In this document: one piece after another, positions 9,001-34,851 of the stretch
How the letters are laid out: each line of letters begins with the position of its first letter
Position numbering within the stretch: position 1 is the first letter of the stretch
Virus record (IMG/VR): IMGVR_UViG_3300020472_002183
Location: 1 to 35,360 of that record
Source: a virus
DNA: 35,360 nucleotides
Direction: 5' to 3' (one strand)
The notes under the pieces: model-generated
What the model saw: only the letters and a program-made list of their open reading frames with translations
Told to the model about the DNA's origin: nothing
Database searches by the model: none
Position numbers and translations under genes: made by a program

Positions 9001-12000
9001 AGATTGGTGATGAGATAATGAAGGTAGAAGGTGTAGGTATTGGAACTGCTAATGGAATAAGAGTACGTAGACCTTGGTTGGGTACTAAAGTTGGTTATGC
9101 TGCAACTAGTGCATTAGTAACTAAGGTACAGGGTAATTATAATATTGTTGATAACGTACTTAACTTTGTAGAAGCACCTTATGGTAATGTACCATTTAGT
9201 TCCACAACTAACGAACCCGATGAAAGAGATTGGGTAGGTATTGAAACTGGATCAAGTTTCCAAGGAAGATCCTTTATGCGTTCAGGTATTCCTGATACAT
9301 CATCAGAAGCATATAGTAACAACTACATCTTTGATGACGTTTCTGCTGAATTTGATGCTATTAACAGTACATTTACATTAAAAACAGAAGGTGGTAATTT
9401 TACTGGTGTTGAGCAAGATAATGCAGTTGTTTTAATCAACGATATTTTCCAAGAACCAGGATTAGTTGGTGATTATTTCTTAGAGCAGAGTGCAGGTATT
9501 ACATCTGTTACTTTTGTTGGTACTGCAAGAACAATTACTAATGATGTTGGTATTTCTTCCTTCCCAAGAGGTGGTGTAATAGTCTCAGTTGGATCTAAAT
9601 CTGGTTTAGGATATCAACCATTAGTTGTTGCTGGTGGTAAAGCAAATGTTTCTATTGCAGGAACAATTAGTTCAGTTAGTGTTGGTAATAGTGGATCTGG
9701 ATATAGATCTGGGATTCAGACAGTAGTTAATGTTGGAGTTGTAACAACACCTAACATTCCAAATAAGATTATTGGTATTGGTACAGCAGCAATTTCTAAT
9801 GGACATGTTTCAGGAATTACAGTTACCAATCCTCAAATTTTCCATGCTCCAAGCGAAATTCAGAATGTTACTTACACAAGAACTAATGGTGTAACTACAG
9901 TAACTACAATTAATCCTCATGGATTATCAGAATCTGAAATGGTTGTGTTATCTGGAATAGCATTTACTTGTGATTATGCTCCATCAGTTAACATATATGG
10001 TGCAGAATATGATAATACTACTGGAATAATGACAGTTACTACTACCACTTCTCATGGAATTGGTAGTGATAAGCAAGTTATATTTACTGGATTAGGAATG
10101 ACTTGTGGTATTGATAATGGTGCTACAACTCATATCTATCCAAGAGGAAAAGATATTGCTTATAATAGACCAATTAATATTTTAGATGATGGAGCACATC
10201 ATACAGTAACTGCTGCTGATTATAATCCAACTACAGGTAAGATGGTAGTTGCACTTAGTAATGCTCATGGAATGATTAATGGGGATTTTGTTAAATTTAT
10301 TGATAACTCAATATCATTTACTTGTGATAAAGATAATCATGAAACAGTTCATTCTTATCCAAGAAAAGGAGATCATCCTACTAATAATTGGTTAAAGATT
10401 TTTGATGTAACTGCTAATGGTTTTAGTGTTTATGTTTTAGACTTTACTCAAAGACCATCATCTAATACTTCTAACCATACGTTCCATTCAGCAATTGATA
10501 ATGGATTAGTTCATAATAATGGTAAGATAACGGTTGATGTTGGTGCAGCAGGTGCTAGTGATCAATATGCTCATACTTGGGTAGGTGGAAATGCTGCTAA
10601 TGCTGTTACAACTGGTGGTGATCATACACATAGATTCCATAGTGCTACAACTGGTGCTTTAATTAGTGGTGGTGATTATAATCATAGATTTGCAAGTGCT
10701 CTTGATGGTGGAGTTTTTGTTACTGGAATAGGAACTACAACTCCAGTTGATGCAACTTATAATGCAGAAAAAGGTGAATTAGTACTTACTATTCCCAATC
10801 ATCCTTATACAATTGATGATACTGTACAAGTATATCCAGATGCTATAACATTTACTTGTGAAATGGATGGAAATACAACAAATCATTCATATCCAAGAAT
10901 AACTGATCCGATAGTAGGTATAGCAACTGATATTGCTGGAGCAAGTAAGGATACAATTACACTTCTTGTCGGTAAATCACCGTTGGTTAAGTATGATGTT
11001 TCAGATGCAACTTATACAGGATCTACTGGTAAGTTAGTCTTAAATATCGGAAATCATTCTTTACGTGGATCTTCCACCTTTACTATCACTAATGCAGAAT
11101 ATGATCCAGTCTCTGGAATCATGACTATGACATCTAATTCTCATGGTTTATCTGTTGGGGATAGAGTTAAGATTGCAGATAACTCAATAACATTCCGTTG
11201 CGATCAAGATGGATTTAACTCAGATCATTCATATCCAAGGGCAGCCGTTCATAAAGGTAACGGTGTTGTAGAACCAGATCCTTCTCATAATACTTGGTTA
11301 CCAATCTCTAAAGTAACAACAAATACTTTCACTGCTAGAGTGATAGATGAAACACCTTCGACTAATACAACTACTCATGCATTCCAAAGTGCAGATCCTA
11401 ATGGAATAACCAAAGCAGGTGAATCTGTTAGAATTGCTAAGGATAGTTTGACATTTACTTGTTCAATGGATGATTATGTAAGTCCTCATAGTTATCCAAG
11501 AGGAACAGATCCAATATACGAAACATCAGTATCTGTTGGTGCAACAACTAATAATACAATTACTCTTGATGTTGGAGTTAGTACTTCTGTAAATTATACA
11601 GTAACTAATGCAGACTACACTGCATCTACTGGTATTATGACAATGACTCTCAGTGAGCCTCATAGATTATATGCTGGTGTTAATGTCAATATTGCTACTG
11701 AATCTCTAACATTTACATGTACTAAGGATGGAAATGCTACTCAACATAAGTATCCAAGAAAACCAGATCCTACTTATAATGGAGTAGATGTTATTGGTAT
11801 TGGTAATTTAGTTCAGAAGAATGTTACTAATGCAACTTACATACCATCTAATGGTAATTTAGTTCTAACAATTGGTACTAATCATGGATTGAAGATTGGT
11901 GATGCTGTTAAGATTAAGACTGATTCATTAGTCTTTACTTGTGCTATGGATAGTGATGCTAGTAATCATTCTTATCCAAGAGTAACTGATCCTATACATG

Positions 12001-14681
12001 ATAAGTTTGTTAATGTTTCTAGTGCTAATCAGTCTGCTGGTACGATTACATTAAATGTTGGAACAACTCCAGAAGTAAGTCATAATGTTTCAGATGCAAC
12101 TTATAATCCAGATTCTGGTGAAATGGAGTTAACAATTGGTCTCCATACTTTAACTGCAGGTACAAGTATTAGACTTGTTGCTAATTCATTAAACTTCTCA
12201 TGTAATAATGCTGGAGTACAAAATAGAACATATCCTCGTGCAACTGGTGCTAATACAAATAGTGGTTCTGATTATGCGTATAATACTTCTATAGAAATTT
12301 TAGCGGTTACAACAACCACTATTCTAATCAACGTTAATGATCCAGTAAATCCTGGTCCTATTAGTCACAACTATCCACACACATTCATCAGTGCAACTGC
12401 TGGTGCTGTTAAGAGTGGTGGTAACTATAACCACACATATGTTGGTGGAACTGTAGCAAATGCAGTTAGTGTTGGATCAACTGTATTGTCAGTTAATATT
12501 GGTGTTTCTACAGTACCAACATTCTACAAGTCTGGTGGTAAAGTTCAGCAAGCAATTGTTGCACCTAGAGCAAAGAATCTTTCCCCTAGTGCTGCTGATC
12601 CTGCTGTTGACGGTAGTGTAGTTCTTAAGGTACTTGATAGTACATCATTTGAGGTTAATAGTGGATTATCAACACGTCATCACATTTATGCAAGAGGTGG
12701 TAAAGTTGATCCATTCTTAGATGTTGTAATTGATAAACCTCTTTCATATAATAATGTTCCATTAGTTTACAGTGGATCTGCTCCTGCAGGTGTTGGAACA
12801 TACGCTACTGCTGATATTATTGTTGGTCAAGGTTCTAGTGTTATTAATTTCTCTATTAATAATAGTGGATATCGTTATGGTGTTGGTGAGAAATTAACAG
12901 TTTCTTCTGGTGGTACTTTAGGTATTCCAACAACATCAGATTTTGATGAATTCCAACTTACTGTCCAAGACATATTCACTGATGAATTTAATGGTTGGTC
13001 AATGGGTATGTTGCAAACATTAGATAATGTTGATCATTTATTTGATTCTACAAGAAAAACTTTCCCAATAAAAGTTGGCGGTAATATTATTGCTATTAAA
13101 TCTGCAGAGGGATCTAATATTAATGTTGAGGATACTCTATTAGTATTCATTAATGATATATTACAGGTTCCTGGTAAAGGATTTATCTTTAATGGTGGTA
13201 GCGTAATTACCTTTGGTGAAGCACCTAAGAAAGGTGATACTTCTAAGATTTTATTCTATAAGGGAAGTGGAGATGTTGATGTTGTCTTTAGAAATATAAT
13301 CGACACTGTAAAGCGTGGAGATACATTAAAACTTGATAATGATGTTGAGATGGGTCAGCATTGGAGTCTAGAAGAAGATGAAAGAGTTGCTACCAACATT
13401 ATATCAATTGATACTGCTGAAACTAACCCATATACTGGTCCAGGAAATGTTAGTGATTCTAGTTTAATGAGACCAGTTACTTGGTGTCGTCAAACTTCTG
13501 ATATGATTATTGATGAAACCGAAGTTGGTAAGGGAAGAGAATTGTATGAACCAGTTATTTCTCCTTCTGCTTATATAACTAGACCAATTTCTGCTGGATC
13601 TACTGAGGTATATGTTGATAACTTAAGACCATTGTTTGATGGTAAGAATGAGAATAATGTTGATCCATACTTATTATTCCAGAAGAAAGTTACTTTCGTT
13701 GATATGGAAACTCAAGTTGGAGCAAGTGCTACAGCAACAGTTTCTGGTGATGGAGTAATTTCTATTACTGTAACCGATGGTGGTGTAGGATATAGTACTG
13801 CACCTACAGTTTCTATACAGAATCCAATTGGAATTGGATCTACTGCTCTTGCTACTGCAACTGTAAACAATACAGGATCTATTTCTGCTGTTACTGTTTC
13901 TTATAGTGGTACTGGTTATACATCTATACCACAGGTTCTTATTTCTCCACCAACATTATCTGAAGAAACAAAACCAATTAATTGGTTTGCAGGTGATTCT
14001 GGAACAATTGTTGGATTTGGTACTACAACCATTGCTAATAGTGATAGTTTACTATTTGACTTCCATATTCCGTTAGGTTCTGATTTACGTGATGATTCTT
14101 TAGTGGGATCTGCGATTACATTAAGTCAGATACAACTAGGTGATTACTTTGTTGTTACTAATTCTACAGTTGGTATAGCACAGACAATGATAAGATCATA
14201 TGATTTAGGTGATACTGTTGTTGCAATAGGAACAGAATTTATTAATAATGTTTACTGTGTTAATCATGTAGAAAATAAGCATGTTAATCTTCCTGGTATC
14301 GGAGTAACAATGGTAAGAAGAGTACGTTCTAGAATTACTGGAATGTCCACAATTACCTTCGATTCTTCATATATCACGATGGATAATGAGATATATACTA
14401 TGGATAATGCTGTAACTGGATCTGGTAGCACCTATGATGGTACTGTTAACACTCCTGTAGGGATTGGAAACTTTAGTTGGGGTAAGCTACAAACTAAGTC
14501 TAAATTACAAAATAATTATAAATTCTATGGTGGAAATGGTATTGGTGTAGGAGAATATTCTACAGTAGGTGAGGATGCTGATGATGAAACTATAATTATA
14601 GAACATTCTGCTACAGGTATTCATACTTCTTCGATTGTAAGAAGATTTGAACCTTTGAGATCAATCAACTACTTAGTCTAA
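1..14681 (+). CDS. Giant YHYH-domain virion structural protein, 5' end outside the window
   Basis: The reading frame is open from base 3 to the TAA at 14679-14681, so the gene enters from the left and at least 4,893 codons are visible. A YHYH domain is readable at about 2955-3233 (GWAYDGNPIYGPYGY, then NGRFCVTPEYPDGVYAYFAT). The rest is Gly/Thr/Ser/Val/Asn-rich beta-type sequence built from recurring modules. One has the form H-G-L-x-T-G-D...YYV...I.L (about 1740, 2070, 4290, 4830, 7710, 8590). Another is a GxGYxxxP type (about 1440, 2370, 3500, 5510, 9670, 13720). A third is INDI(F/L)QxPG (about 9430 and 13150), and a fourth is an FTC...HSYPR array. No signal peptide, transmembrane segment or enzyme motif is visible. 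Such giants are known as virion proteins of marine T4-like phages. A baseplate-peripheral or fibre role is inferred from its place upstream of gp8, roughly where T4 carries gene 7. Confidence 0.85.
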   Translation, partial: TKAYAPITYVEKVSTGTAGVAKTFYKLAVDSGYDRSGITAGAIYGKFSVHAKSRVIGHVGIGTSVLDVDSTVGFPKSGELSVQYKNLSVGIISYTSKSLTQFYGCTNINGVILDRTDVGINTYAYGYSSVEPDKVIKIKINSVINSLKYDSDSYGYKKGDKVKINTLGIGATGFKCDNWFYNGCPVYTIDSFELVDASDQTWQITLKTDHFFRKGDAAVISGRDSSPKNCEIVAISSSKSFVVSGQGALSNTDVYNIRRTISKAVPSGTHTIGAGISVFSTDIQNLYVDNDKLLVASASIPSYGTQPLDAYDHSVTFSGTFSGTDWEISTQDHSLYTGDSIYYSPNKITQNFINSAGQPTSRIVDGPGLVEEGIYFVDRVDLNTIRLSKTKSDLLNNRFLSVDAKTPITVTDNKIQKTDYNNKILDTQKIVREISNPNNEGVETKTKSGFTGILINGVEILNYKSRDFIYHGEVKSIDLLSGGSEYDVINPPDLKIEDSVGIGATGHVSVLGSLQEVRVIDPGFDYYETPIITVSGGNGFGALVSPNMKTIAHEVKFNATQKGERVITGANSLINFTQKHRFGTGERIIYKTDGERALGGISTSSEYYVDVINDYKIRLHNKSWEAIAGINTITFTSHGTGNQIIKSYYNKKVVESINVINSGSNYENKKRVTGTTGISTSLNIINILDHGYESGESVMYTAQETPVGGLISGNEYYVTKVNKDSFKLSEAGVGVTYHNYYYNTNQYLDFTSAGVGTHLFNYPEIKLNISTSGFSTTTDQAQLQPIFRGTLTSVRLSDNGVGYGSSDIINLQNEPLITLVRGTNAQIEAIVDNGTIVDVLIKNTGKDYSSVDLQIIGNGVGAVLTPIITNGQITDIKIIEGGANYVKGGTFINVVPSGSLAKFKPNLQSWNLNLVSRNINKFTVDDGYLIDGINSTDTLQYSHLYAPRQLRERIFSVDQVGRKMYGSYDLSKDLGGNENTSTQHSPIIGWAYDGNPIYGPYGYITKAGGIISQMKSGYNSRDAITLANRPPGYPEGFFIEDYNYQKVSDETVLDQNNGRFCVTPEYPDGVYAYFATVEEDIATSGQFVGYKQPQFPYLIGDKFKSTPNLFNFHKESNQDDYLLENTEWVRNTTPYNLHEQGIDYGYISLPNELKQTADITGVAPGTIDSVGIETGGIGYQVGDIVVFDNTDSNGSGASVRVTSIEGKEFDTISVASSIITGAEIYPSNSYEIRTTSPHNFVNGDIVTVSGLSTTSSDIDGTYPITVEQSSFTLVGLGTTVAGAGEIEVTGIVTYFNVSGDFSFVKINDQFDVGEPVGALEKPEKIQVLNIDERSSRIRVLRNAAFDFGLTGNSILSGENIAEESKRFTIPAGLSTSFAGRENTQYYFDPKEVVGFGLTVGISHTAYINNPGAGASIINIASGALYIQNHNLHTGDELVYNSSIPMFEGDEPIGIATVGIITAGYYNVSTPGPLADGTKLYVAKINANLIGLSTVRVGVGSTGTFVGVTSEFRDSTTLLFSSPGTGVLHNFKTNFDPITATVTRHQVTSLVKEDHGLQNGDIVDLSVNPGVASTFIVKYNDYNRKLIIGEKSFADTDVNVADDSITIEGHGLVTGQKIVYTAISPSSGLDNNRIYYVYVSDHNTIKLCHTIWETQQFTPNFVNINSASAGNIGPINPPINAYKDSTVVFNVGDSSLAFIRDSQPYSAFELDFYTDTSFTKLWNNRVSDVVRDGVAGINSSATVSITIDRHSPDSLHYNLTPLYETDLPPVKEEIDFDKEVFSNNTIFVKDSNFAGKRTVSVASTNEFTFTVGDLPETVSYKNNNPKISYKTTSTNATGPIAEIKIVNGGANYYSLPGITSVASFTGSGAILKPYTTSIGKIKNSKIKDIGFDFPSDTTLRPTTNLPQVLFLDSLSRVFSVGITSAGKGYIKPPTLLVFDGRTKKRVDDIEIKYKLGDDQAQIIKNKANLNPVPPILLPINNTNGIGIATIGFTTATKEVVIGFNTGFSEVFPFDVGDKFLVENISVGIGSTGFGFNSSEYEYKMFVVSKTTPNLGGIGSIFYNLEGYLPDGQQPGDFDVVNSVGRVIPERDFPIFDVRLENNSFFANEIVKSNSTGVVESWEPTTGVLKVISNEIFDPNTLIVGQSSGASGIISSTRNFDSYMDLGVSSKVSSGWETNSGFLDDNQQRVQDNMYYQNFSYSLKSRIAYDTWQDVVSTLNHTLGFKKYSDYEVVSDSSLPEGGSGYYIKGGGTGVENHVPASMVIGVTTSLTFSEVVSECIGVGNLNCVADFDMVSENALQIGNSTISNEIRFTSKTLTDYFESIGNRVLSIDDISPTFNSNPRPTPFSVVSNFTLSDVRAQKYITYVRDKRYLGERQIMVVDIINDNYNAYISQYARVETEYDLGSFDFTVQGTDGQLLFYPTRSTVNDFDITCLSYNIDDNLAGIGTTTIGSTTVDTGSFDISGGTTTIAEFDYDHTLGGKVLVEITGSSNEYEMDELNFIVDAFGGIDIVEYPQITTDVGEVASAGMGTYWAYTDGVKCKIDFIPHPATNRLFTVEPSEVNDTDDTITMVNHRLSTGSGLKYTEGALSIGGLIDGTTYYVINVSEDVIQLATTEENAKENIPIDLTTSGTGQQFFRVLTVINCIYKELDESLVGFGTQVNMKHARLESDLVAISASGTPTPQVIMKYPTQLDANTDGYDGAYFMAFVETGTSGTASAIRYFSEHMIIDDYNEGMQTGEVYEAEWGVLSHNNVAGLGTFGYRLDKNPGGTSFVEVTFTAPANQASRVTYFMNALKVQDDLQDQILFDNALIQSESGTYEGTHSDIKRAFNLTHNNYPIFEREFDGSDTEIISILDNTIKLPNHYFVTGEKLTYEPIGLGSSTNIGIVTTTISGIGQTDKLPRTVYAVKVDEEKIKLAGSAENALLGTPEILDISSVGIGTTMKFVADRQNTKVIVALDNIIQSPVVSTALTTHLDQQLFTTDNLVQVGSITSIFGGDLIKIGDEIMKVEGVGIGTANGIRVRRPWLGTKVGYAATSALVTKVQGNYNIVDNVLNFVEAPYGNVPFSSTTNEPDERDWVGIETGSSFQGRSFMRSGIPDTSSEAYSNNYIFDDVSAEFDAINSTFTLKTEGGNFTGVEQDNAVVLINDIFQEPGLVGDYFLEQSAGITSVTFVGTARTITNDVGISSFPRGGVIVSVGSKSGLGYQPLVVAGGKANVSIAGTISSVSVGNSGSGYRSGIQTVVNVGVVTTPNIPNKIIGIGTAAISNGHVSGITVTNPQIFHAPSEIQNVTYTRTNGVTTVTTINPHGLSESEMVVLSGIAFTCDYAPSVNIYGAEYDNTTGIMTVTTTTSHGIGSDKQVIFTGLGMTCGIDNGATTHIYPRGKDIAYNRPINILDDGAHHTVTAADYNPTTGKMVVALSNAHGMINGDFVKFIDNSISFTCDKDNHETVHSYPRKGDHPTNNWLKIFDVTANGFSVYVLDFTQRPSSNTSNHTFHSAIDNGLVHNNGKITVDVGAAGASDQYAHTWVGGNAANAVTTGGDHTHRFHSATTGALISGGDYNHRFASALDGGVFVTGIGTTTPVDATYNAEKGELVLTIPNHPYTIDDTVQVYPDAITFTCEMDGNTTNHSYPRITDPIVGIATDIAGASKDTITLLVGKSPLVKYDVSDATYTGSTGKLVLNIGNHSLRGSSTFTITNAEYDPVSGIMTMTSNSHGLSVGDRVKIADNSITFRCDQDGFNSDHSYPRAAVHKGNGVVEPDPSHNTWLPISKVTTNTFTARVIDETPSTNTTTHAFQSADPNGITKAGESVRIAKDSLTFTCSMDDYVSPHSYPRGTDPIYETSVSVGATTNNTITLDVGVSTSVNYTVTNADYTASTGIMTMTLSEPHRLYAGVNVNIATESLTFTCTKDGNATQHKYPRKPDPTYNGVDVIGIGNLVQKNVTNATYIPSNGNLVLTIGTNHGLKIGDAVKIKTDSLVFTCAMDSDASNHSYPRVTDPIHDKFVNVSSANQSAGTITLNVGTTPEVSHNVSDATYNPDSGEMELTIGLHTLTAGTSIRLVANSLNFSCNNAGVQNRTYPRATGANTNSGSDYAYNTSIEILAVTTTTILINVNDPVNPGPISHNYPHTFISATAGAVKSGGNYNHTYVGGTVANAVSVGSTVLSVNIGVSTVPTFYKSGGKVQQAIVAPRAKNLSPSAADPAVDGSVVLKVLDSTSFEVNSGLSTRHHIYARGGKVDPFLDVVIDKPLSYNNVPLVYSGSAPAGVGTYATADIIVGQGSSVINFSINNSGYRYGVGEKLTVSSGGTLGIPTTSDFDEFQLTVQDIFTDEFNGWSMGMLQTLDNVDHLFDSTRKTFPIKVGGNIIAIKSAEGSNINVEDTLLVFINDILQVPGKGFIFNGGSVITFGEAPKKGDTSKILFYKGSGDVDVVFRNIIDTVKRGDTLKLDNDVEMGQHWSLEEDERVATNIISIDTAETNPYTGPGNVSDSSLMRPVTWCRQTSDMIIDETEVGKGRELYEPVISPSAYITRPISAGSTEVYVDNLRPLFDGKNENNVDPYLLFQKKVTFVDMETQVGASATATVSGDGVISITVTDGGVGYSTAPTVSIQNPIGIGSTALATATVNNTGSISAVTVSYSGTGYTSIPQVLISPPTLSEETKPINWFAGDSGTIVGFGTTTIANSDSLLFDFHIPLGSDLRDDSLVGSAITLSQIQLGDYFVVTNSTVGIAQTMIRSYDLGDTVVAIGTEFINNVYCVNHVENKHVNLPGIGVTMVRRVRSRITGMSTITFDSSYITMDNEIYTMDNAVTGSGSTYDGTVNTPVGIGNFSWGKLQTKSKLQNNYKFYGGNGIGVGEYSTVGEDADDETIIIEHSATGIHTSSIVRRFEPLRSINYLV
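2955..3233 (+). other. YHYH domain within the giant protein
   Basis: The translated segment contains the family signature SPIIGWAYDGNPIYGPYGY. About 45 residues later it has the second hallmark, NGRFCVTPEYP followed by YAYFAT. Both halves are intact. The domain is widespread in marine bacteria and in cyanophage structural proteins. Its biochemical role is not established. Confidence 0.8.
9868..12245 (+). repeat. Tandem protein repeat array (FTC...HSYPR units) in the giant gene
   Basis: About nine degenerate units occur, spaced irregularly at roughly 130-540 bases. A full unit starts with a strand like (A/D)(T/D)Y...TGxMxLT, continues with HGLxxGDxVxI, and ends with SLTFTC..DG....HSYPR.TDP. 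FTC-type motifs begin near 9962, 10096, 10317, 10848, 11190, 11450, 11709, 11932 and 12192. Some units are incomplete; for example the one near 11007 lacks the FTC half and the one near 11405 lacks the first strand. His-rich spacers with GGDYNH-like motifs interrupt the array (about 10480-10720, and again around 12360-12470). The DNA copies have diverged and only the protein pattern is strong. Confidence 0.85.
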
Positions 14682-16066: not shown

Positions 16067-18970
16067 ATGCCATTAAGTGATATAAAAAGGGAGTACGTAG
16101 TTACTGTTAGGGAGCATGGTGATTTAGAAAATTTTTATGATGAGATGGAGACTTCTGGAAGTGCTGGATGTTGTCCAGAAAGGGAAGTTGAATTAATTGC
16201 AAGAAGAACTATTAGTAGAAATACACATTATAAATTAAGTGAACTAGATGTAGATAAATTAAAAAATCATCCAAATGTAATCAATGTAGAATTAGCACCT
16301 CATGAATTAGGTATTGAAGCAACTCCTCTTTGGGGTCCACAAACTGGTGATTTCCAAAAGAACACAACTTTTTCTAGTGGTGATCTTAATTGGGGGTTAA
16401 AGAGAGTTGTTGATGGTGCTCAAACTCCTAATTGGGGTGTTGATGGGCAAATGGTTATAAATGATACAATTACTACAGGTGCTTCAGGAAAAAATGTTGA
16501 TCTTGTAATTGTAGATAGTCATGTTAATCATGAACATCCAGAGTTTTGGAGAAGTCCTGACATTAATAATGGATCCAGAATGAACCAAATTGATTGGTTT
16601 GCTGAATATGCAGCTGCTATAGGTGATCCTTATGGTACTGGAAAAAATTATACTTATAGTAGTTCTGGATACGGAACACCTGGACAAAGTAATCATGGAA
16701 CTCATGTTGCTGGTACTGCTGGAGGTAATACTCAGGGGTGGGCAAGAGATGCTAATATGTTCAATATAGCATTTAGTACCACTTTAGTTAATGATGCATC
16801 TGGTACGTCATATCCTGATTTTCCTACCTATCTTTTTGATTATCTAAGAGAATTTCATAGAAAGAAAGCAATTAATAGTAAGACTGGAAGAAAAAATCCA
16901 ACGATTGTAAATCATAGTTGGGGATATAGTCAAGGATCTCCAGATCTTAATAGTATTACAAGTGTTGATTATAGAGGAAATACTACACAAGTAGTAGGAA
17001 CAGATCCTGAAAGAAAAATTATATTAGAAGCAAATGGAGTTCCTGTTCCATTTAATACTACTTTGTATAGAGTTCCATTTAGGTATTCCGTAATAGCAGC
17101 TGATATTTATGATGCTGCTTTAGAGGGTATCATTAATATATCTTCTGCTGGTAATTCTTATTGGTTATGTGAGGGAGATGTAAGTGCAGATGATTATAAT
17201 AACAGATATTATGTTGGATCCAGTGTATTTGCTCATTCTAGAGGATCAAGTCCAGGAGCCGATCATACGATGATTTGTGTTGGATCTGTTGGTGATGTAA
17301 AAGATGAATTTAAATCAACTTTTAGTAATACTGGTTCTAGAATTGATGTTTGGGCACCTGGATCAAATATAATTTCTTCTGTATTTGATACTACTGCATC
17401 TACAGAAAACTATGGAACTCTAGTAAATGATCCAAGAGATTCTAATTTTAAACTTGCAGATATTGATGGAACTAGTATGTCTAGTCCTCAAGTTGCTGGA
17501 TATATTGCATGTCTTGCAGAACAAGAACCAAATTTGACATGGGAAGATGTATTAGAGCATATAAAAGATAACTCAAAGTATGATCAAGTTTCAAATAGTG
17601 CATTAGATGGTTATGGGGAAGCATTATTCTCAACAGCAGGAAATTTTGGATGGACTGTTCCTGTTGGAATAACTACTATCTCTGTCGTATGCATTGGTGC
17701 TGGTGGTGGTGCTGGTGGTGCTTCTCCACAAGATGGTGATGGAGGTGGAGGTGGTGGATTAGCATATAGAAATAATTTTCCAGTAACACCAGGACTAACG
17801 GTGAATGTTTTTGTTGGAGGTGGTGGTGCTGGTGGTTTACAAGGTGCTGCTGGAGGAGCTGGTGGTGCTTCATTTGCACAGTATGAAGGGTCGATGATTG
17901 CACATGCTGGTGGTGGATATGGTGGATCAGGATCTGGTGGATCTGGTGGTGCTGGTGGTGGTCATTATGCCCCTTCTGATGGTGGTGGTAATGGTGGTGC
18001 TGGAGGTGGTTTTAACTCTGCTCAAGGTGGTGGAGGAGGTGCTGCTGGATATTCTGGTGATGGTGGACAAGGAGCAAGTTCATATCCAAACGGTTCAGGT
18101 ACTGCTGGACAAGGTGGTGGAGGTGGAGGTGGATTCCAAGCTCCTGGAGGTGGTGTAGGAATATATGGAGAAGGTGCTAGTGGACAATCATCAAATCTTG
18201 CTAATAGTAATCGCATAGGTTATCCTGGATCTGGCGGTAAAGGTGGATATAGTGCTGGTTTTGGTCCTAATGGTGCTGCTGATGATGGTTCAGGAATATA
18301 TGGTGGAGGTGGATTTGGTAATTATACGGGTGGTACTGGTGGTGTTCGTATTGTTTATTGGGGTCCTAATAGTCCTCAGAGAGCATTCCCATCAACTAAC
18401 GTATCACAAACAACGATATGGTCACAAGATTATAAGAATCTAGGACCAGGTACTAATAATAGGTATCTTTATTATAAGAGAAAGAGACTAGATACTGGTT
18501 TAGTATATCCTCATGATACTTGGAAAAACCGTATACCATTAGATGCTGGTACTAAATATCCAAGACAAAAGAATGTAACTACTAAGACAGAACAATTCGC
18601 TGAAATATATCAATGGTCTTTTGATGTTACTGCTCCAGGAACTGGATTTTATTTCTTTGCTGATTCCTATGATAGATTAGGAACAGTACGTGATGCCACC
18701 TATACAACTATTACATGTAAGAGAGGTGATAGTTTGCAATTTACTATAAATGCTTCTGGTCATCCATTCTTTATTAGTAATAGGAAAGGTAATGGTATGC
18801 CATCTCCATCTGAAACTCCAAGTGGAATTACTAATAATGGTAGTGATTTTGGTGCTGTTGTTTGGGATACTACAAATGTTACTCCAGGAGTCTATTGGTA
18901 TAACTGCCAATATCACTCAAATATGTATGGAATGATAGTAGTAACTGAATCTGCATTTATTCCTGCATAA
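16067..18970 (+). CDS. Subtilisin-like (S8) serine protease fused to glycine-rich and cupredoxin-like domains
   Basis: The protein has 967 residues. Residues 1-80 look like an inhibitor-I9 propeptide (YVVTVRE at the start; YKLSELDVDKLKNHPNVINVEL at the end). Residues about 140-520 are a complete S8 domain: Asp150 in DLVIVDSHV, His210 in SNHGTHVAG, oxyanion Asn363 in SSAGN, and Ser470 in DGTSMSSPQVAG. Residues 529-765 are a glycine-rich domain introduced by WTVPVGITTISVVCIGAGGG, as in phage adhesins. Residues about 850-960 look like a cupredoxin with all four type-1 copper ligands: His899, Cys947, His950 and Met953 (Cys-x2-His-x2-Met, the amicyanin spacing). There is no signal peptide or membrane segment. 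It sits between a fibre gene and gp8, so a tail-attached protease acting at the host surface or on virion proteins is inferred. An accessory lysis or processing enzyme is the alternative. Domain calls are firm; the role is not. Confidence 0.88.
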   Translation: MPLSDIKREYVVTVREHGDLENFYDEMETSGSAGCCPEREVELIARRTISRNTHYKLSELDVDKLKNHPNVINVELAPHELGIEATPLWGPQTGDFQKNTTFSSGDLNWGLKRVVDGAQTPNWGVDGQMVINDTITTGASGKNVDLVIVDSHVNHEHPEFWRSPDINNGSRMNQIDWFAEYAAAIGDPYGTGKNYTYSSSGYGTPGQSNHGTHVAGTAGGNTQGWARDANMFNIAFSTTLVNDASGTSYPDFPTYLFDYLREFHRKKAINSKTGRKNPTIVNHSWGYSQGSPDLNSITSVDYRGNTTQVVGTDPERKIILEANGVPVPFNTTLYRVPFRYSVIAADIYDAALEGIINISSAGNSYWLCEGDVSADDYNNRYYVGSSVFAHSRGSSPGADHTMICVGSVGDVKDEFKSTFSNTGSRIDVWAPGSNIISSVFDTTASTENYGTLVNDPRDSNFKLADIDGTSMSSPQVAGYIACLAEQEPNLTWEDVLEHIKDNSKYDQVSNSALDGYGEALFSTAGNFGWTVPVGITTISVVCIGAGGGAGGASPQDGDGGGGGGLAYRNNFPVTPGLTVNVFVGGGGAGGLQGAAGGAGGASFAQYEGSMIAHAGGGYGGSGSGGSGGAGGGHYAPSDGGGNGGAGGGFNSAQGGGGGAAGYSGDGGQGASSYPNGSGTAGQGGGGGGGFQAPGGGVGIYGEGASGQSSNLANSNRIGYPGSGGKGGYSAGFGPNGAADDGSGIYGGGGFGNYTGGTGGVRIVYWGPNSPQRAFPSTNVSQTTIWSQDYKNLGPGTNNRYLYYKRKRLDTGLVYPHDTWKNRIPLDAGTKYPRQKNVTTKTEQFAEIYQWSFDVTAPGTGFYFFADSYDRLGTVRDATYTTITCKRGDSLQFTINASGHPFFISNRKGNGMPSPSETPSGITNNGSDFGAVVWDTTNVTPGVYWYNCQYHSNMYGMIVVTESAFIPA
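17696..18355 (+). repeat. Glycine-rich low-complexity region of the protease fusion
   Basis: About 220 residues are dominated by GG, GAGG and GGGGG runs encoded mostly by GGT and GGA codons, interrupted by short polar or aromatic inserts such as NNFPVTP and GYSGDGGQG. The pattern of glycine runs with short variable loops resembles polyglycine-helix adhesins such as gp38 of some T-even phages. Open frames on other strands here come from the repeated GGT codons. Confidence 0.85.
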
Positions 18971-28214: not shown

Positions 28215-28435
28215 TGTTAAAAGTAGAAGGTCATTCTGATCTTATTAGAGATCCTAAAACCAATTCTATAGTGAATACAAATTCATTAGAATATGAAAAG
28301 TATGTTGCTAGACGCAAAGCTTCCACTCAAAATTCTGATAGAGTGGAATCTATTGAGCAGGATTTATCTAATCTAAAAAATGAAATTAATGAAATCAAAT
28401 CACTATTAAAGGAGATAGTTATCAATGTCAAATAA
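28214..28435 (+). CDS. Small coiled-coil protein, unknown function
   Basis: The 73-residue product is charged and apparently soluble. Its ATG shares one base with the TAA of the DUF4815 gene, and its end overlaps the next gene by 11 bases, so all three are probably translationally coupled. The C-terminal 35 residues (SIEQDLSNLKNEINEIKSLLKEI) have leucine/isoleucine heptad spacing, indicating a short parallel coiled coil. The N-terminal half contains SDLIRDPKTNSIVN. I recognise no family with certainty. Small proteins of this form do occur before gp13 in marine T4-like phages, which suggests a virion or assembly role. It is unlikely to be a spurious frame given the tight overlaps and the clear coiled coil. 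Confidence 0.7.
   Translation: MLKVEGHSDLIRDPKTNSIVNTNSLEYEKYVARRKASTQNSDRVESIEQDLSNLKNEINEIKSLLKEIVINVK
28408..28414 (+). promoter_or_regulatory. Ribosome binding site of the BppU-N-like gene
   Basis: AAAGGAG lies inside the preceding small gene, 10 bases before the ATG at 28425. It supports that overlapping start. Confidence 0.65.
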
Positions 28436-28811
28436 AAATATAACCTTTAATACTGATGCTGGTGTTCCTGCAGCTGCAAATCTAGTTATTACTACTGGAT
28501 CAGATTTTTCTACAACATTTACTGTTGTAGATACTAGTAATGCTGCTTTTGATTTTACTGGATATACTGCAGCATCTCAAATGTCAAAAAGTGTTGCTGT
28601 TGGGGCAACATTAGGTGCTGTTGGAACGTTCACTGTTGGTATTACTAGTGCATTGGGTGGCAAAATAAATATCTCAATGACTGAACAGAGTACACGTAAT
28701 CTTTCAGAAGGTCGATATGTATATGATGTAAATGTAAAAACTGGGACTACTGTTAGTAAATTGGTTAATGGAAATATTCTAGTTTATGCTGGAATTTCTA
28801 CTACACCCTAA
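28425..28811 (+). CDS. BppU N-terminal-like beta-sandwich virion protein
   Basis: This 128-residue protein has the pattern of the immunoglobulin-like N-terminal domain found in phage baseplate upper proteins (BppU-N) and related fibre anchors. A disordered start is followed by GSDFSTTFTVVDTSNAAFDFTGYTA, a strand with SKS, then GKINISMTEQSTRNLSEGRYVYDVNV and a final strand ending NGNILVYAG. The motif 'L-x-E-G-R-Y-V-Y-D' followed by 'G-x-(I/V)-x-V' is the most diagnostic part. No second domain is present, so it may be a small adaptor on the baseplate or neck. It overlaps the coiled-coil gene by 11 bases and ends 26 bases before gp13. The fold is inferred from pattern only, and the specific role is unknown. 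Confidence 0.65.
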   Translation: MSNKNITFNTDAGVPAAANLVITTGSDFSTTFTVVDTSNAAFDFTGYTAASQMSKSVAVGATLGAVGTFTVGITSALGGKINISMTEQSTRNLSEGRYVYDVNVKTGTTVSKLVNGNILVYAGISTTP

Positions 28812-29693: not shown

Positions 29694-32279
29694 GTGCTTA
29701 ATCCATACTTCCAACAAGGTGCTAGATCAGAACAAAATCTGATACAGGATATAATCAACGAACAGTTGAGGATGTATGGTGTTGAGATACATTATTTACC
29801 AAGAAAATACGTAAGTGAAAAAAGTGTTATTAAAGAAGTAGTAGCTTCCAAGTTTGATGATGCATATCCAATAGAAGCATATATTGATAACTTTGATGGA
29901 TATGGGGATAATCCAATTTTATTATCTAAGTTTGGTATCCAACAGACTAATGAAGTAACTCTTATAATATCAAAGGAAAGATTTGAGACATATATTTCTC
30001 CATTGATGAAAGGGGAGGAGAATGTAAAACTTACAACTAGACCCAAGGAAGGAGATTTAGTTTACTTTCCATTAGGAGATAGATTGTTTGAGATTAAGTT
30101 TGTAGAGCATGAGAAACCATTCTATCAGTTACAGAATACTTATGTTTATGAATTACGTTGCGAACTCTTCCGTTACGAGGATGAGGTTATTGCTACTGGA
30201 GTTGAAGAGATTGATGACGAATTAGTTGGAGATGATTTATCTGATGCTCAGACAGAAGATGGTATTTCTACAATACTTGGCGTAACACAAACATTAAAGT
30301 TAGTTGGTAGTGGAATTAATGCATCTGCAGAAACTAATTTAGTTCTTAATGGTGGAATAAGATATATTAACGTATTTAATAGGGGTGGTGGTTATATAAC
30401 AACACCACATATTGGATTATCGTCTTCTCCATCAGGTGGAATTACTGGTATAGCCACGGCATTAATGATTGGTGGAATAGATGTATGTAATCTAAATGTT
30501 AATGCAGCTGCAAGATCTGTACAAGAAATACAATTAGTAAATCCAGGTTCTGGTTATACTGTTACTCCTGGAGTAGCAATTACCAATACTACAGGAACTG
30601 GTGCTGGAGCAACTGCTCATCTTACCAATCGTGGTGTTGGTATAGTTACTATTACTGGTGGTGGTAGTGGATTTACTACTGATCCTACAGTTACATTCTC
30701 TACACCGATTCATGTTGGTGCTGCTGCAACAGCAGTTATAGATACCCCAATGGTAGGTGGTGGTGTTAGTGTAACTCGTGCTGTTATTAGTGATGGACCT
30801 GCTGCCTTTATGTTCCCAGGAGGAACTACAGGTGGTAGATTCTATAAGCCAGGTACAATTCCAACTGTAACATTTGATCTACCTGGAGGTAGTAGTCATG
30901 CTGCAACAGCAGATGCAACATTAGATGACATTGCTCTTACTGGTGGTACAGTTTTATCAACAAACATTACATTTGGTGGTAGATTCTATAAAACTGCTCC
31001 TATTTTAACATTCTCTGCTCCAGTTAATTCTGGTGCGTCTGGATCTATTGGTATTGCAGTATCATCAATCAATCCATCAACTTTAGGGTTTACAACCACT
31101 GGTAGGGCATATAAGGTTGCTCCAGCAGTGATAATTGGCACTGGTAGTGGTACAGATACACTAATAGAATCTGCAGTTGGTATTGCAACTATTCATCCAA
31201 TTACTGGTATAGTTACTGCTGTTTCATTTGATGTTGCTGATCCTTGGGCAGTTGGAACTGGAGCAACAGTTGGTTATGGTTATACTGTTACTCCAACGAT
31301 TTCATTCTCTGGAGCAACGGCACAAGAAAGAGCAACAGCAACAACAACAATTGATGCGGATGGACAGGTAGATAGTATTTCTATTGGAAATAGTGGATAT
31401 GGATACTATAGTACTCCATCTATTACAATCAATCCACCAACTTCTGCAATGGAGGAATTCAGAGCATTAGGTGTTGCAACTATGAGATTTGATTCTGTTA
31501 TAGCAAATGGTACGATTGGTATAGGAACAACCAATGCTATTACAGGAATCGATACAACAGGTATTCTGATGGGAGATAGAGTAAGATTAGAGAATGGTTA
31601 TGATGATATCTATTCTAACTTTATTGCAACTGATACCTATGTAACAAGTATTGGTATAGGAACGATTTATATACAAGATGAGACATTCAATGCAGGTGCT
31701 GCAACTTCATCCTTTGAGTTTGGTATTGATAAGTGTGGTATTATTACAGGAATTGCTGTTACCTACGGTGGTGGTGGATATTTAGAACCACCAGGTGTTA
31801 CTATACAAAATGATGTAAGTGTTAAGAATTATCATGAAATTGTAGCAGGTGTTATTACCGCAACTGGTGCTGCACATATTAATGATGCAGGAAATGTTAC
31901 TGATATATGGATAACTGATTCTGGTGCTAAGTATGTTGAAGGGGAAGGTAGTCCAACTCCTTGGGTAACTATTTCTGCTCCATCTATGGATTCTACAGGA
32001 GATTATAGATTTAATGAGATAGTTACAGGAGCAACTAGTGGAGCCAGTGGAAGAGTAAGATCTTGGAGTTCTGTATCCAATGAATTAGAAATTGCATCAG
32101 TTAGTGGAACATTCCTTAATGGAGAGAAAGTTGTAGGATCAAGTTCAGGTGCTTCACATGCATTGAGAAAGACTGATACTATGCCAGATAGTGATGAATT
32201 TGCGGATAATTTTGATATAGAAACGGAAGCAGATAAGATTTTAGACTTCTCAGAAACCAATCCATTCGGTATTCCCTAA
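29694..32279 (+). CDS. 14: Neck protein gp14 with a large beta-repeat insertion
   Basis: Residues 1-180 are gp14-like: LNPYFQQGARSEQNLIQDIINEQLRMYG, YLPRKYV, then KFVEHEKPFYQLQNTYVYELRCELFRYEDE. The last 30 residues, ending ETEADKILDFSETNPFGIP, are the conserved gp14 C-terminus. Between them lie about 600 residues of Gly/Thr/Val-rich repeats with the core GSGYxxTPxVxI, so the protein has 861 residues against 256 in T4 gp14. The segment before the C-terminus (FNEIVTGATSGASGRVRSW...GTFLNGEKVVGSSSGA) is another small repeat. The start is GTG, 4 bases after the gp13 stop, with no clear Shine-Dalgarno, which suggests coupling to gp13. The expected role is head completion with gp13. The insertion probably projects outward from the neck, possibly as whisker- or fibre-like decoration; that is inference. 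Confidence 0.86.
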   Translation: MLNPYFQQGARSEQNLIQDIINEQLRMYGVEIHYLPRKYVSEKSVIKEVVASKFDDAYPIEAYIDNFDGYGDNPILLSKFGIQQTNEVTLIISKERFETYISPLMKGEENVKLTTRPKEGDLVYFPLGDRLFEIKFVEHEKPFYQLQNTYVYELRCELFRYEDEVIATGVEEIDDELVGDDLSDAQTEDGISTILGVTQTLKLVGSGINASAETNLVLNGGIRYINVFNRGGGYITTPHIGLSSSPSGGITGIATALMIGGIDVCNLNVNAAARSVQEIQLVNPGSGYTVTPGVAITNTTGTGAGATAHLTNRGVGIVTITGGGSGFTTDPTVTFSTPIHVGAAATAVIDTPMVGGGVSVTRAVISDGPAAFMFPGGTTGGRFYKPGTIPTVTFDLPGGSSHAATADATLDDIALTGGTVLSTNITFGGRFYKTAPILTFSAPVNSGASGSIGIAVSSINPSTLGFTTTGRAYKVAPAVIIGTGSGTDTLIESAVGIATIHPITGIVTAVSFDVADPWAVGTGATVGYGYTVTPTISFSGATAQERATATTTIDADGQVDSISIGNSGYGYYSTPSITINPPTSAMEEFRALGVATMRFDSVIANGTIGIGTTNAITGIDTTGILMGDRVRLENGYDDIYSNFIATDTYVTSIGIGTIYIQDETFNAGAATSSFEFGIDKCGIITGIAVTYGGGGYLEPPGVTIQNDVSVKNYHEIVAGVITATGAAHINDAGNVTDIWITDSGAKYVEGEGSPTPWVTISAPSMDSTGDYRFNEIVTGATSGASGRVRSWSSVSNELEIASVSGTFLNGEKVVGSSSGASHALRKTDTMPDSDEFADNFDIETEADKILDFSETNPFGIP
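30340..31985 (+). repeat. GxGYxxTPxVxI beta-repeat insertion in gp14
   Basis: At least eight degenerate units can be read, with cores such as RGGGYITTPHI, PGSGYTVTPGV, GGSGFTTDPTV, RFYKPGTIPTV, RFYKTAPILTF, YGYTVTPTISF, SGYGYYSTPSI, GGGGYLEPPGV and SGAKYVEG. Units are about 35-70 residues apart and are joined by GTGAGATA-like turns. They resemble units in the giant protein, gp8 and the DUF4815 protein. Confidence 0.85.
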
Positions 32280-32301: not shown

Positions 32302-33303
32302 ATGTTTGAGTATTTTTATAACGAAATTCTGAGGAGGACAATCATTTCCTTTGGTACTCTGTTTAATGGGATAACCGTTAAGCAGGAAAATTCTACTATC
32401 AAAGTACCATTGGCATATGGTCCTACCCAAAAGTTCTTGGCAAGATTAGAACAATCACCTGATCTTAATAAGTCAACTGCGATGACATTACCTAGAATGT
32501 CATTTGAGTTTACTGGTCTTACATACGATCCATCAAGAAAGGTTACAACAACACAAAGATATACAGTAACAGATCCAGTTGATGGTAAAGAAACTAATAA
32601 AGTTTTCATGCCTGTGCCATATAATATGCAATTTGAGCTTGCTATTATGTGTAAGTTAAATGATGATGCATTACAGATTACAGAACAAATATTACCTTAT
32701 TTCCAACCAGCATATAATGTATCAGTAAATTTGGTTGGTGCTATTAACGAAAAAAGAGATGTTCCGATAATATTAGAAAATATTACAATGCAGGATGATT
32801 ATGAAGGAGACTTTACTGCAAGAAGAGTACTTCTTTATACTTTAAGATTTACTGCTAAGACTTACATGTTTGGTCCTGTTACATCTGCTACCAAGGATAT
32901 CATCAAGAAGTCTACTGTTACATATCTATCTGGATCAGACAGATCTACTGCACATAGAGATGTTACTTACTCTGTTAAACCAAGAGCAGTTAAGAACTAC
33001 ACTGGTAATGTTGCTATCATAGCAAATCTTGCTAATGATATTTCATTAACGGATACGAAGATTGCTGTCGAGGATTCATCTCAAATTACTATTCCATCAA
33101 GTGGTAAGTTATTTGTAGATCTTGGTGGAGAAGAGTTGTGGGTTAAGTCTAAGGATGGAAATGAATTAGTGGTAGAAAGAGGACAAGATAATACAACTGC
33201 AGTTGGTCACTTGAGAGGGGATGCTATTAAGTCTATTACTGAGGCAGATGCAGTTCTTATCGAAGAAGGTGACGACTTCGGATTTGATGGGACTACATTC
33301 TAA
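32302..33303 (+). CDS. 15: Tail completion and sheath stabiliser protein gp15
   Basis: The product corresponds to T4 gp15, the hexameric tail terminator that caps the sheath and tube and connects them to the neck. The N-terminal region FEYFYNEILRRTIISFGTLFNGI, then VPLAYGPTQKFLARLE and LPRMSFEFTGLTYDPSRK, is the family signature. NMQFELAIMCKLNDDALQITEQILPYFQPAYN follows near residues 107-138. At 333 residues it is longer than T4 gp15 (272). The extra C-terminal part (residues about 245-325: GKLFVDLGGEELWVKSK...LVVERGQDN...HLRGDAI) resembles a small module also found in the giant and DUF4815 proteins. Its TAA shares one base with the gp16 ATG, so translation is probably coupled. Confidence 0.9.
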   Translation: MFEYFYNEILRRTIISFGTLFNGITVKQENSTIKVPLAYGPTQKFLARLEQSPDLNKSTAMTLPRMSFEFTGLTYDPSRKVTTTQRYTVTDPVDGKETNKVFMPVPYNMQFELAIMCKLNDDALQITEQILPYFQPAYNVSVNLVGAINEKRDVPIILENITMQDDYEGDFTARRVLLYTLRFTAKTYMFGPVTSATKDIIKKSTVTYLSGSDRSTAHRDVTYSVKPRAVKNYTGNVAIIANLANDISLTDTKIAVEDSSQITIPSSGKLFVDLGGEELWVKSKDGNELVVERGQDNTTAVGHLRGDAIKSITEADAVLIEEGDDFGFDGTTF

Positions 33304-33701
33304 TGAAACAACTAGATAAAGCATTTAACATCACTCCTGAAGTGGTTCCTGAAGAACCCAAACCTGTGGTTAAAGAAAAACCAGATAGGTTAACTAAGAA
33401 TGATGTTGAAAAAGATTATGACTATACAAGAGGTAATCTTTATAGTATTATCGAAAAAGGTCAAGAAGCAATTGATGGTATACTCGAACTTGCTCAAGAA
33501 ACTGAGCAACCAAGAGCATATGAAGTTGCTGGTCAGTTGATTAAGAGTGTATCTGATGCAACTGATAAATTGATGGATCTTCAGAAAAAACTGAAAGATG
33601 TTGAGGAAGAAAAAACCAAAACAACCAATGTAACTAATAATGCATTGTTTGTTGGTTCTACTTCCGATTTGGCTAAGTTGATTAAACAACAGAATCAATG
33701 A
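33303..33701 (+). CDS. 16: Terminase small subunit gp16
   Basis: This 132-residue protein is the regulatory subunit of the packaging motor that works with gp17. Two blocks align by eye with T4 gp16: DVEKDYDYTRGNLYSII...QPRAYEVAGQLIKSVSDATDKLMDLQKKLKDV (T4: DLEDDYGVVRRNMHFQQ...[32 protein letters not shown]) and NNALFVGSTSDLAKLI (T4: QNATVFMGSPTELMDEI). The central helices (about 65-105) form the coiled-coil oligomerisation core in T4-like small terminases. It is shorter than T4 gp16 (164) mainly at the C-terminus. The start shares one base with the gp15 stop, and the stop overlaps the next gene by four bases (ATGA). Confidence 0.9.
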   Translation: MKQLDKAFNITPEVVPEEPKPVVKEKPDRLTKNDVEKDYDYTRGNLYSIIEKGQEAIDGILELAQETEQPRAYEVAGQLIKSVSDATDKLMDLQKKLKDVEEEKTKTTNVTNNALFVGSTSDLAKLIKQQNQ

Positions 33702-34210
33702 AGAATTTTAAGAAATTTATTAAAGAACAACCCACTAATGTTACTGGTGGTGTTGCTAAATTTGATAAGTATCTTTTTCCCATTGATGACGATACATTAA
33801 CTCAGGATTATCAAACACCTTATGGATTAAATTATAGATTGTCTAATATTTTTCCAGTAGAGAAACTAACTCTTCAGGATATAGATACTATGACAAGTGC
33901 TTCTAAAAAGTATGTCAACATGCAGGATGACAATGCAAGACAAAGAACTATGAAGAATTATTCCCAATTTATGGAGGAAACTAAATCTAAAGATTGTCCT
34001 CCTGGTAAATATTATTGTTTCACAGATAAAAAATGCAAATCTATTCCTAAAGGATATTATGTTGGTGCGAGAGGAAGGTTAGCACAAGAACCAGAGGACG
34101 GAGACAATGACAACGGAAATGGGAGTAATAATGGTGTGGACAGTGGTAATGGCAATGGCCATAGTAATGGTGGTGGGAACGGTCATGGGTCTAATGGAGG
34201 AGGATCATGA
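33698..34210 (+). CDS. Conserved marine-phage protein with CPPG Cys motif and Gly/Asn-rich tail, unknown function
   Basis: The 170-residue protein begins MKNFKKFIKEQPTNVTGGVAKFDKYLFP, a basic helix followed by a structured region up to about residue 95. Residues 100-113 are CPPGKYYCFTDKKC, three cysteines (100, 107, 113) in a compact motif, followed by SIPKGYYVGARGRLAQ. Residues 131-170 are an acidic stretch and then a low-complexity tail of G, N, S and H. I recall similar CPPG...PKGY endings in other marine T4-like phage proteins but cannot assign a function. It lies between gp16 and gp17 with 4-base overlaps on both sides, so expression is tied to packaging genes. A minor virion or assembly protein is possible. 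Metal binding by the cysteines is only a possibility. Confidence 0.65.
   Translation: MKNFKKFIKEQPTNVTGGVAKFDKYLFPIDDDTLTQDYQTPYGLNYRLSNIFPVEKLTLQDIDTMTSASKKYVNMQDDNARQRTMKNYSQFMEETKSKDCPPGKYYCFTDKKCKSIPKGYYVGARGRLAQEPEDGDNDNGNGSNNGVDSGNGNGHSNGGGNGHGSNGGGS
34196..34203 (+). promoter_or_regulatory. Ribosome binding site of the DUF192 gene, embedded in glycine codons
   Basis: GGAGGAGG, the last glycine codons of the preceding gene, forms a near-perfect Shine-Dalgarno 3-6 bases before the ATG at 34207. The low-complexity Gly tail therefore also serves as the initiation signal of the next gene. Confidence 0.65.
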
Positions 34211-34851
34211 AGATTAACTTACCACTTAAAATAGAAATTCCAAATACACAGGCAGAATTTGAGTTAGGTCTGATGTTTAGAGAAAGTCTAGAAGAAGATA
34301 CTGGAATGCTTTTTGCATTTGCAGAAAATGGTGAACACTCTTTTCATATGAGACATACTACTATTCCTCTTGATATTGCATTTATTACTGAAGAAGGAGT
34401 TATAGAAAGTATTAAAGAATTAGAACCCTTAAGATCTTCTCCTGTTTATCCTGACAGTAACATTCGTTATGCGTTGGAAGTGAATCGGGGATGGTTTGCT
34501 GAGAATAATGTTAATGTAGGAGATAATGTTTTTGTAGATGATTGGAGAACTGATTATAGACCAACTGAAATAGAATCAATTGATATAATTAAACCAGAAC
34601 CATTAAAACCCTCACCAAGTATTCTTGATGAATCAACAAGAATACCAACTGAAATAGGTAATCTTATAGATGTTTATTTGGCATGGAGAGGAAGAAACTA
34701 CATGATTAAGATGTTCTTCCCTCAAGTATCAAAACCATCTAAAAAAGAAGTAATAACACAAGTAAGTAAGGTTTATCCTGGTTGTAAGGTTTGGAACTAT
34801 GAACGTACAGATTACGTTCCTGGTCAACCATTCTTGCGAATAGGATCTTAA
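34207..34851 (+). CDS. DUF192-domain protein with C-terminal extension
   Basis: Residues about 12-108 match the DUF192 pattern: FELGLMFRESLEEDTGMLFAF, HSFHMRHTTIPLDIAFITEEGVIESI, then RYALEVNRGWFAENNVNVGD. The usual FWM(K/R)NT motif reads SFHMRHT here. DUF192 proteins are small beta proteins of unknown biochemical function. They occur in bacteria, often exported, and in marine T4-like phages. No signal peptide is seen. The remaining 100 residues, ending AWRGRNYMIKMFFPQ...VYPGCKVWNYERTDYVPGQPFLRIGS, form a separate domain I do not recognise from characterised families. At 214 residues it is about twice the length of the DUF192 core. It overlaps the preceding gene by four bases and is 15 bases before gp17. 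Confidence 0.78.
   Translation: MKINLPLKIEIPNTQAEFELGLMFRESLEEDTGMLFAFAENGEHSFHMRHTTIPLDIAFITEEGVIESIKELEPLRSSPVYPDSNIRYALEVNRGWFAENNVNVGDNVFVDDWRTDYRPTEIESIDIIKPEPLKPSPSILDESTRIPTEIGNLIDVYLAWRGRNYMIKMFFPQVSKPSKKEVITQVSKVYPGCKVWNYERTDYVPGQPFLRIGS

Follow-up and report, generated by a model that had tools for sequence, protein, structure and literature searches.

Why should a head-closure protein of the T4 type be more than three times as long as that of T4 itself? The question is raised by an open reading frame in a viral record of 35,360 bases (hereafter the window), which is treated as a fragment and belongs to an S-SM2-like marine cyanophage (Kyanoviridae). This reading frame encodes a T4-type gp14 head-closure protein and is a member of that family. 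Its N-terminal part matches the Pfam family PF11649 (T4_neck-protein) over residues 1–168 (E = 2.7e-29, 102.8 bits, cut-off 25), its core matches the PHROG head-closure Hc2 families 460 and 679, and residues 1–167 are aligned by phmmer to residues 26–182 of T4 gp14 among the chains of solved structures (E = 1.6e-24). The AlphaFold2 (AF2) model of the core matches T4 gp14 (9lu4_M) with a Z score of 9.8 and an rmsd of 3.5 over 102 aligned residues with 42% identity, and the gene order gp13–gp14–gp15–gp16 is as in T4 and cyanophage S-SM2. Among annotated isolates with a full genome, Synechococcus phage S-SM2 (Kyanoviridae, Nilusvirus) is the closest; its gp14 has 481 residues and that of T4 has 256, so that the window protein is 1.8 and 3.4 times as long, respectively. 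At the other end, the peptide ADNFDIETEADKILDFSETNPFGIP, terminating in DFSETNPFG, is common to the window and cyanophage gp14s, and NPFG occurs near the gp14 end in 236 of 250 complete relatives. An earlier note on this DNA had claimed that both conserved ends of gp14 are intact and that the protein is enlarged more than threefold. Both claims hold, the former by the PF11649 match and the C-terminal peptide shared with marine relatives, and the latter by the length relative to T4 gp14 and by forms of 868–869 residues on three other contigs. The features are listed in Table 1.

Table 1. Features of gp14 and its neighbouring genes in the window (residue numbers refer to the window gp14).
Feature	Position	Strand	Details and evidence
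gp13 neck protein, 283 aa	28838..29689	+	PHROG head-tail adaptor Ad2, E 3.9e-48
gp14 open reading frame	29694-32279	+	GTG start, 861 aa, single open frame
gp14 core, residues 1-168	29694..30197	+	N-terminal helix and beta-barrel; Pfam, phmmer, fold match
Acidic linker, residues 169-193	30198..30272	+	5' edge of the exchanged insert near the linker end (about 30,240-30,290)
Insert 5' repeat block, residues 194-352	30273..30749	+	Repeats, all-beta AF2 model; kind common to short and long forms
Long-form cassette, residues 352-722 (371 aa)	30747..31859	+	Missing from 470-490 aa forms (alignment)
Beta domain without repeats, within the cassette, residues ~596-682	31479..31739	+	AF2 strands
Insert 3' part, residues 722-829	31857..32180	+	Last repeat and F..GE..G..SGA module; alignments
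Conserved C-terminal peptide, residues 838-861	32205..32276	+	Near-invariant in relatives
gp15 tail sheath stabiliser/terminator, 333 aa (T4 272)	32302..33303	+	PF16724, E 5.3e-85
gp16 (small terminase)	33303-33701		

About 640 residues (190–830) are inserted between the core and the C-terminal peptide. They had been described in the earlier note as some 600 residues of GSGYxxTPxVxI repeats. The insert and its repeats are indeed present, gp14 containing ten copies of GxG[YF]..P.V as against 0.37 on average and four at most in 2000 shuffles, but the insert is not made of repeats throughout, residues 596–682 or thereabouts forming a separate beta domain. In Syn19 the F..GE..G..SGA module alone constitutes the entire insert. 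The AF2 model of the window gp14, a single chain of modest confidence (mean pLDDT 70.8, pTM 0.42), predicts the insert to be nearly all-beta, with pLDDT values mostly of 70–90 in its blocks. Sequence searches gave no solved-structure relative of the insert, Foldseek gave no significant match to its repeats, and Pfam gave no match to the window's own insert, hence no recognisable carbohydrate-binding domain. The model of residues 194–352 has T4 gp18 (3foa_B, residues 99–186) as its best match, with a Z score of 5.3, an rmsd of 2.9 and 73 aligned residues, the next match having a Z score of 2.3. A Z score of 5.3 falls in the range of common arrangements, and a gp18-like fold of the repeats is treated as a weak lead. 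The beta domain at about residues 596–682 has no copy outside gp14 by phmmer among all open reading frames of the fetched loci. A fold identity for residues 600–680 was considered and rejected, the matches, with Z scores of at most 7.7, being weak and scattered over beta domains of phage and other origin, which likely reflects a common arrangement. A tblastn search of 50,697 phage records gave no match to the long-form cassette (residues 352–722), although the repeat units of the cassette do turn up in other cyanophage proteins by profile and per-genome searches. Within the window, a few GxGYxxxPxV repeats are found near the C terminus (about residues 4507–4560) of a 4806-residue reading frame at 261–14681, probably gp7 from its position relative to S-SM2, and the repeat is therefore a building block common to several virion proteins. 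No RNA family was found in the window.

The position of the insert can be read against the T4 neck, where gp14 forms a hexamer that closes the head and docks on gp15. When T4 neck complexes are put together in vitro, the 80 C-terminal residues of gp14 are disordered, and in the mature virion its residues 178–256 contact gp15 residues 203–245 extensively (PMC12270204). The window insert falls in the segment equivalent to T4 residues 178–256, the C-terminal peptide being the end of that segment and probably the gp15-docking tail. By analogy with T4, six inserts would project outward around the neck–tail joint, because the DNA channel has no room for six copies of about 70 kDa each. A large projecting structure on the neck, as proposed earlier, is thus the best reading of an insert that lies at the gp15-contact segment and is too big for the channel, and it is from this argument that we infer the outward position itself.

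The earlier note had proposed a survey of gp14 lengths in marine T4-like phages. Such a survey indicates that the enlargement is not a one-off: 250 complete gp14s, sampled by similarity so that class frequencies carry no meaning, fall into discrete size classes (T4-sized, ~306, 470–490, 560, 655, ~760, 838–873 and 952 residues). Counted after the core, where T4 has 70 residues, the classes are 48–94, 117–136, 177–254, 282–319, ~390, 474, 578–594, 665–697 and 781. Among named phages gp14 has 306 residues in Syn19, 390 in S-RIM12, 470 in P-SSM2, 481 in S-SM2, 483 in Bellamy, 657 in S-CAM9 and 762 in S-SSM7. Close relatives of the window virus with a 95% identical core have a gp14 of 478 residues. 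Relatives with shorter gp14s, which had been named as grounds for abandoning the idea, do therefore occur in the same lineage; yet they do not dissolve the case, since the modules are discrete and swappable. Some forms of about 760 residues, those of S-SSM7 and a relative (L110), carry LamG, a lectin-like domain, the Laminin_G_3 match in L110 (E = 5e-8) lying above the Pfam cut-off. In another gp14 (L199, 2072–3322), the insert resembles by eye a cupredoxin-type domain, not repeats, and is not recognised by Pfam. No description of an enlarged gp14 was found in the literature searched on the neck proteins of cyanophages and on neck decorations; the enlarged modular gp14 is regarded as a new form of a known protein, single gp14 records of up to 762 residues being already in GenBank as neck proteins.

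Comparison of the window with its relatives indicates how the size classes are distributed among genomes. DNA identity between the window and a short-form contig (L009) is about 0.9 across gp13 and the gp14 core, drops to 0.6–0.7 near 30,280 (0.61 at 30,281), is interrupted by a gap of about 1.2 kb in the insert and is back to 0.93 by 32,171, whereas identity to a long form (L003) is 0.89–1.00 over the whole insert. Synonymous divergence (dS), chosen because it is hardly affected by selection at the protein level, is mosaic in the same region. Between the window and another long form (L001) dS is 0.86 in gp13, 0.53 in the gp14 core and 0.07 in the cassette, and the bootstrap interval of the core is separate from those of the cassette and the 5' insert. 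Between the window and a short form (L006) it is 0.20 in gp13, 0.45 in the core, 0.90 in the insert (5' block) and 0.28 in gp15; here the intervals of gp13 and insert are separate and those of core and insert just touch. A tree of the core requires 14 changes between the long form and the rest, no fewer than five of them forced by starred branches. The AU test on the core rejects a single clade of long forms (p = 4e-89), and with it the idea that all long forms descend from one origin; the tree used was a rapid one, built from about 175 columns, and is itself open to recombination. From the identity breaks, the mosaic dS, the core tree and the AU test it follows that insert alleles move between backgrounds, and these comparisons show whole insert alleles being exchanged by recombination via the conserved core and tail. 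The ratio dN/dS is about 0.1–0.4 for insert alleles and 0.03–0.11 for the core, so that selection on the insert is looser yet purifying. The identity of gp14, the position of its insert, the discrete size classes, the exchange of alleles and the purifying selection are established in this analysis. Ordinary cyanophage genes recombine too, and exchange alone therefore does not prove an adhesin. Positive selection on gp14 has been reported in a wild cyanophage lineage, although according to the authors the number of signals was indistinguishable from the false-positive rate (PMC5112629).

On balance we lean towards the insert being a display module of the neck, fused to gp14 and exchangeable, that behaves like an adhesin or contacts fibres. 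The conserved core would close the head and the conserved C-terminal peptide would dock on gp15, with a long beta-rich display module held between these fixed ends; a hexameric gp14 like that of T4 would give each virion six such modules. They would loop out at the neck–tail joint and form a fused collar decoration, and insert alleles of several fixed sizes (repeats and a beta domain here, LamG elsewhere) would be swapped as units via the conserved flanks. The insert would contact something variable. This is most likely a glycan of the cell surface, the insert then serving as a secondary adhesin; the alternative is the tail fibres of the phage itself. A broader version, which we put forward more tentatively and with somewhat less than even confidence, is that gp14 doubles as a host-contact display scaffold, a fixed slot for beta-repeat, lectin-like and other modules that are traded by co-infecting phages. 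If this is true, the neck gains a variable, selectable surface while its assembly is unchanged. In marine T4-like phages of SAR11, a host-recognition cluster lies between VrlC and gp14 (PMC7029224).

The insert might instead replace T4 fibritin, the whisker protein encoded by wac, and hold the long tail fibres or help to attach them at the neck, as the earlier note suggested; we consider this unlikely. In T4, wac adjoins gene 13 on its upstream side. Its absence from a 35-kb fragment proves little alone, but complete relatives are also without it. The fibritin family PF07921 was not found, with a positive T4 control, in 13 marine genomes or large contigs of any gp14 length, namely S-SM2, S-SSM7, S-CAM9, P-SSM2, Syn19, S-RIM12, S-MbCM6, Bellamy and five large marine contigs that may be incomplete, nor did Pfam find a fibritin domain in the window gp14. 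In the window and in cyanophages, gp13 has about 40 residues fewer around the fibritin-binding domain III of T4 according to a multiple alignment, the gap placement being unstable in pairwise alignments. The missing wac, the apparent loss of much of the docking region in gp13 and the match to gp18, the only one to stand out for the repeat model, speak for this explanation, domain I of T4 gp18 (residues 98–188) protruding from the sheath and binding retracted long tail fibres (PMC3004832). However, the score of that match is within the common range, and the set without wac spans Syn19 and a contig of 156 kb whose gp14 is T4-sized. Syn19 with its 306 residues and L248 with a T4-sized gp14 show that a phage can do without whiskers even if its gp14 is small. 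Because the absence of wac holds for small and large gp14 alike, whisker loss is, judging by these genomes, a lineage trait that does not track gp14 growth. Replacement of whiskers as the specific explanation is thus unsupported, and the insert may have a role in holding tail fibres. In Syn19 (L102, 1–2117), a structural protein with a YadA domain is encoded directly upstream of gp13, in the slot of wac in T4; a structural protein with a YadA domain was mutated during host adaptation in cyanophage S-TIM4 (PMC6224464).

We likewise regard it as improbable that the insert is a structural brace, which would wrap the gp14–gp15 joint and strengthen head–tail attachment or neck sealing, with repeats gained and lost almost neutrally and alleles hitch-hiking. 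Its location at the gp14–gp15 interface, the extra sequence that gp15 has by alignment near the region contacting gp14 in T4, the purifying selection and the occurrence of the same repeat type in other virion proteins are all consistent with a brace. On the other hand, coupled growth of the two proteins was considered and rejected, their lengths varying independently among cyanophage isolates. The sizes of gp14 form discrete classes, with a LamG domain among the modules, and insert alleles are passed between cores that are almost identical, an exchange that a co-adapted brace would resist. That the reading frame is an assembly artefact, a frameshift fusion or not expressed, as its unusual length alone might suggest, is refuted to the point of negligible probability by the same form on independent contigs, the three of 868–869 residues at 96–97% identity to the window and dozens more at 49–66%, and by dN/dS well below 1.

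Some other genes of the window also deserve mention. Just upstream of gp13, a gene for a 128-residue protein (28425–28811) matches the PHROG family of L-shaped tail fiber protein assembly (E = 6.3e-21), and genes of similar size occupy the same place in S-SM2 and Bellamy; the protein may serve as the chaperone of a fibre or of a display module. In the baseplate cluster, a reading frame of 967 residues (16067–18970) carries a Peptidase_S8 (subtilisin-type) domain (E = 3.6e-23) and, after it, a region very rich in glycine. Its relatives are found in 47 phage records, mostly of cyanophages, some of them annotated as a subtilisin-like protease beside baseplate genes; in S-SM2, gp7 and gp8 are adjacent with no Peptidase_S8 reading frame between them. 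A DUF192 (COG1430) protein of 214 residues (34207–34851, E = 6.9e-29) is encoded two genes past the small terminase gene, and the equivalent region of S-SM2 has a tail-fibre-like gene after gp16.

Known neck appendages are separate proteins with debated roles, whereas the appendage considered here seems to be part of the head-closure protein itself and to differ between genomes as discrete, exchangeable alleles, in a virus group that is among the most abundant in the ocean. Core structural marker genes can carry swapped segments. Display at the neck is directly testable, because there are natural pairs of long and short forms with nearly identical cores.

Among known systems, T4 gp14 and the Hc2 family resemble the window protein in core sequence, predicted fold, gene order and conserved ends, but T4 gp14 has only a few dozen residues and no repeats between core and tail, where the window protein has about 640. 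The gp14s of S-SM2, Bellamy, P-SSM2, S-CAM9 and S-SSM7 share the insertion site, the GxGYxxxPxV repeats and the F..GE..G module; by tblastn they are without the 371-residue cassette and the beta domain of the window, S-SSM7 having LamG instead. T4 fibritin whiskers are likewise a neck decoration, as the insert presumably is, but fibritin is a protein of its own, a trimeric coiled coil that docks on gp13, and its domain is not present in the window gp14. Decorations on the necks of contractile-tailed phages are also known from the neck fibres of A-1(L) (PMC10966104), the collar D domain of Milano and the collar spikes of XM1 (PMC10491603), one of these phages infecting a cyanobacterium; all of them are separate proteins, not insertions in a head-closure protein. 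The neck fibres of A-1(L) end in a carbohydrate-binding module that was negative for host binding (PMC10966104), which counts as a caution against the adhesin reading of the gp14 insert. The 936 lactococcal phages offer a precedent for binding modules at the neck. Their neck passage structure carries variable carbohydrate-binding modules in modular combination, as is proposed for gp14; it differs in being a separate neck protein of siphophages, in which the carbohydrate-binding modules are recognised as such and host binding has been demonstrated for one of them (PMC6669499).
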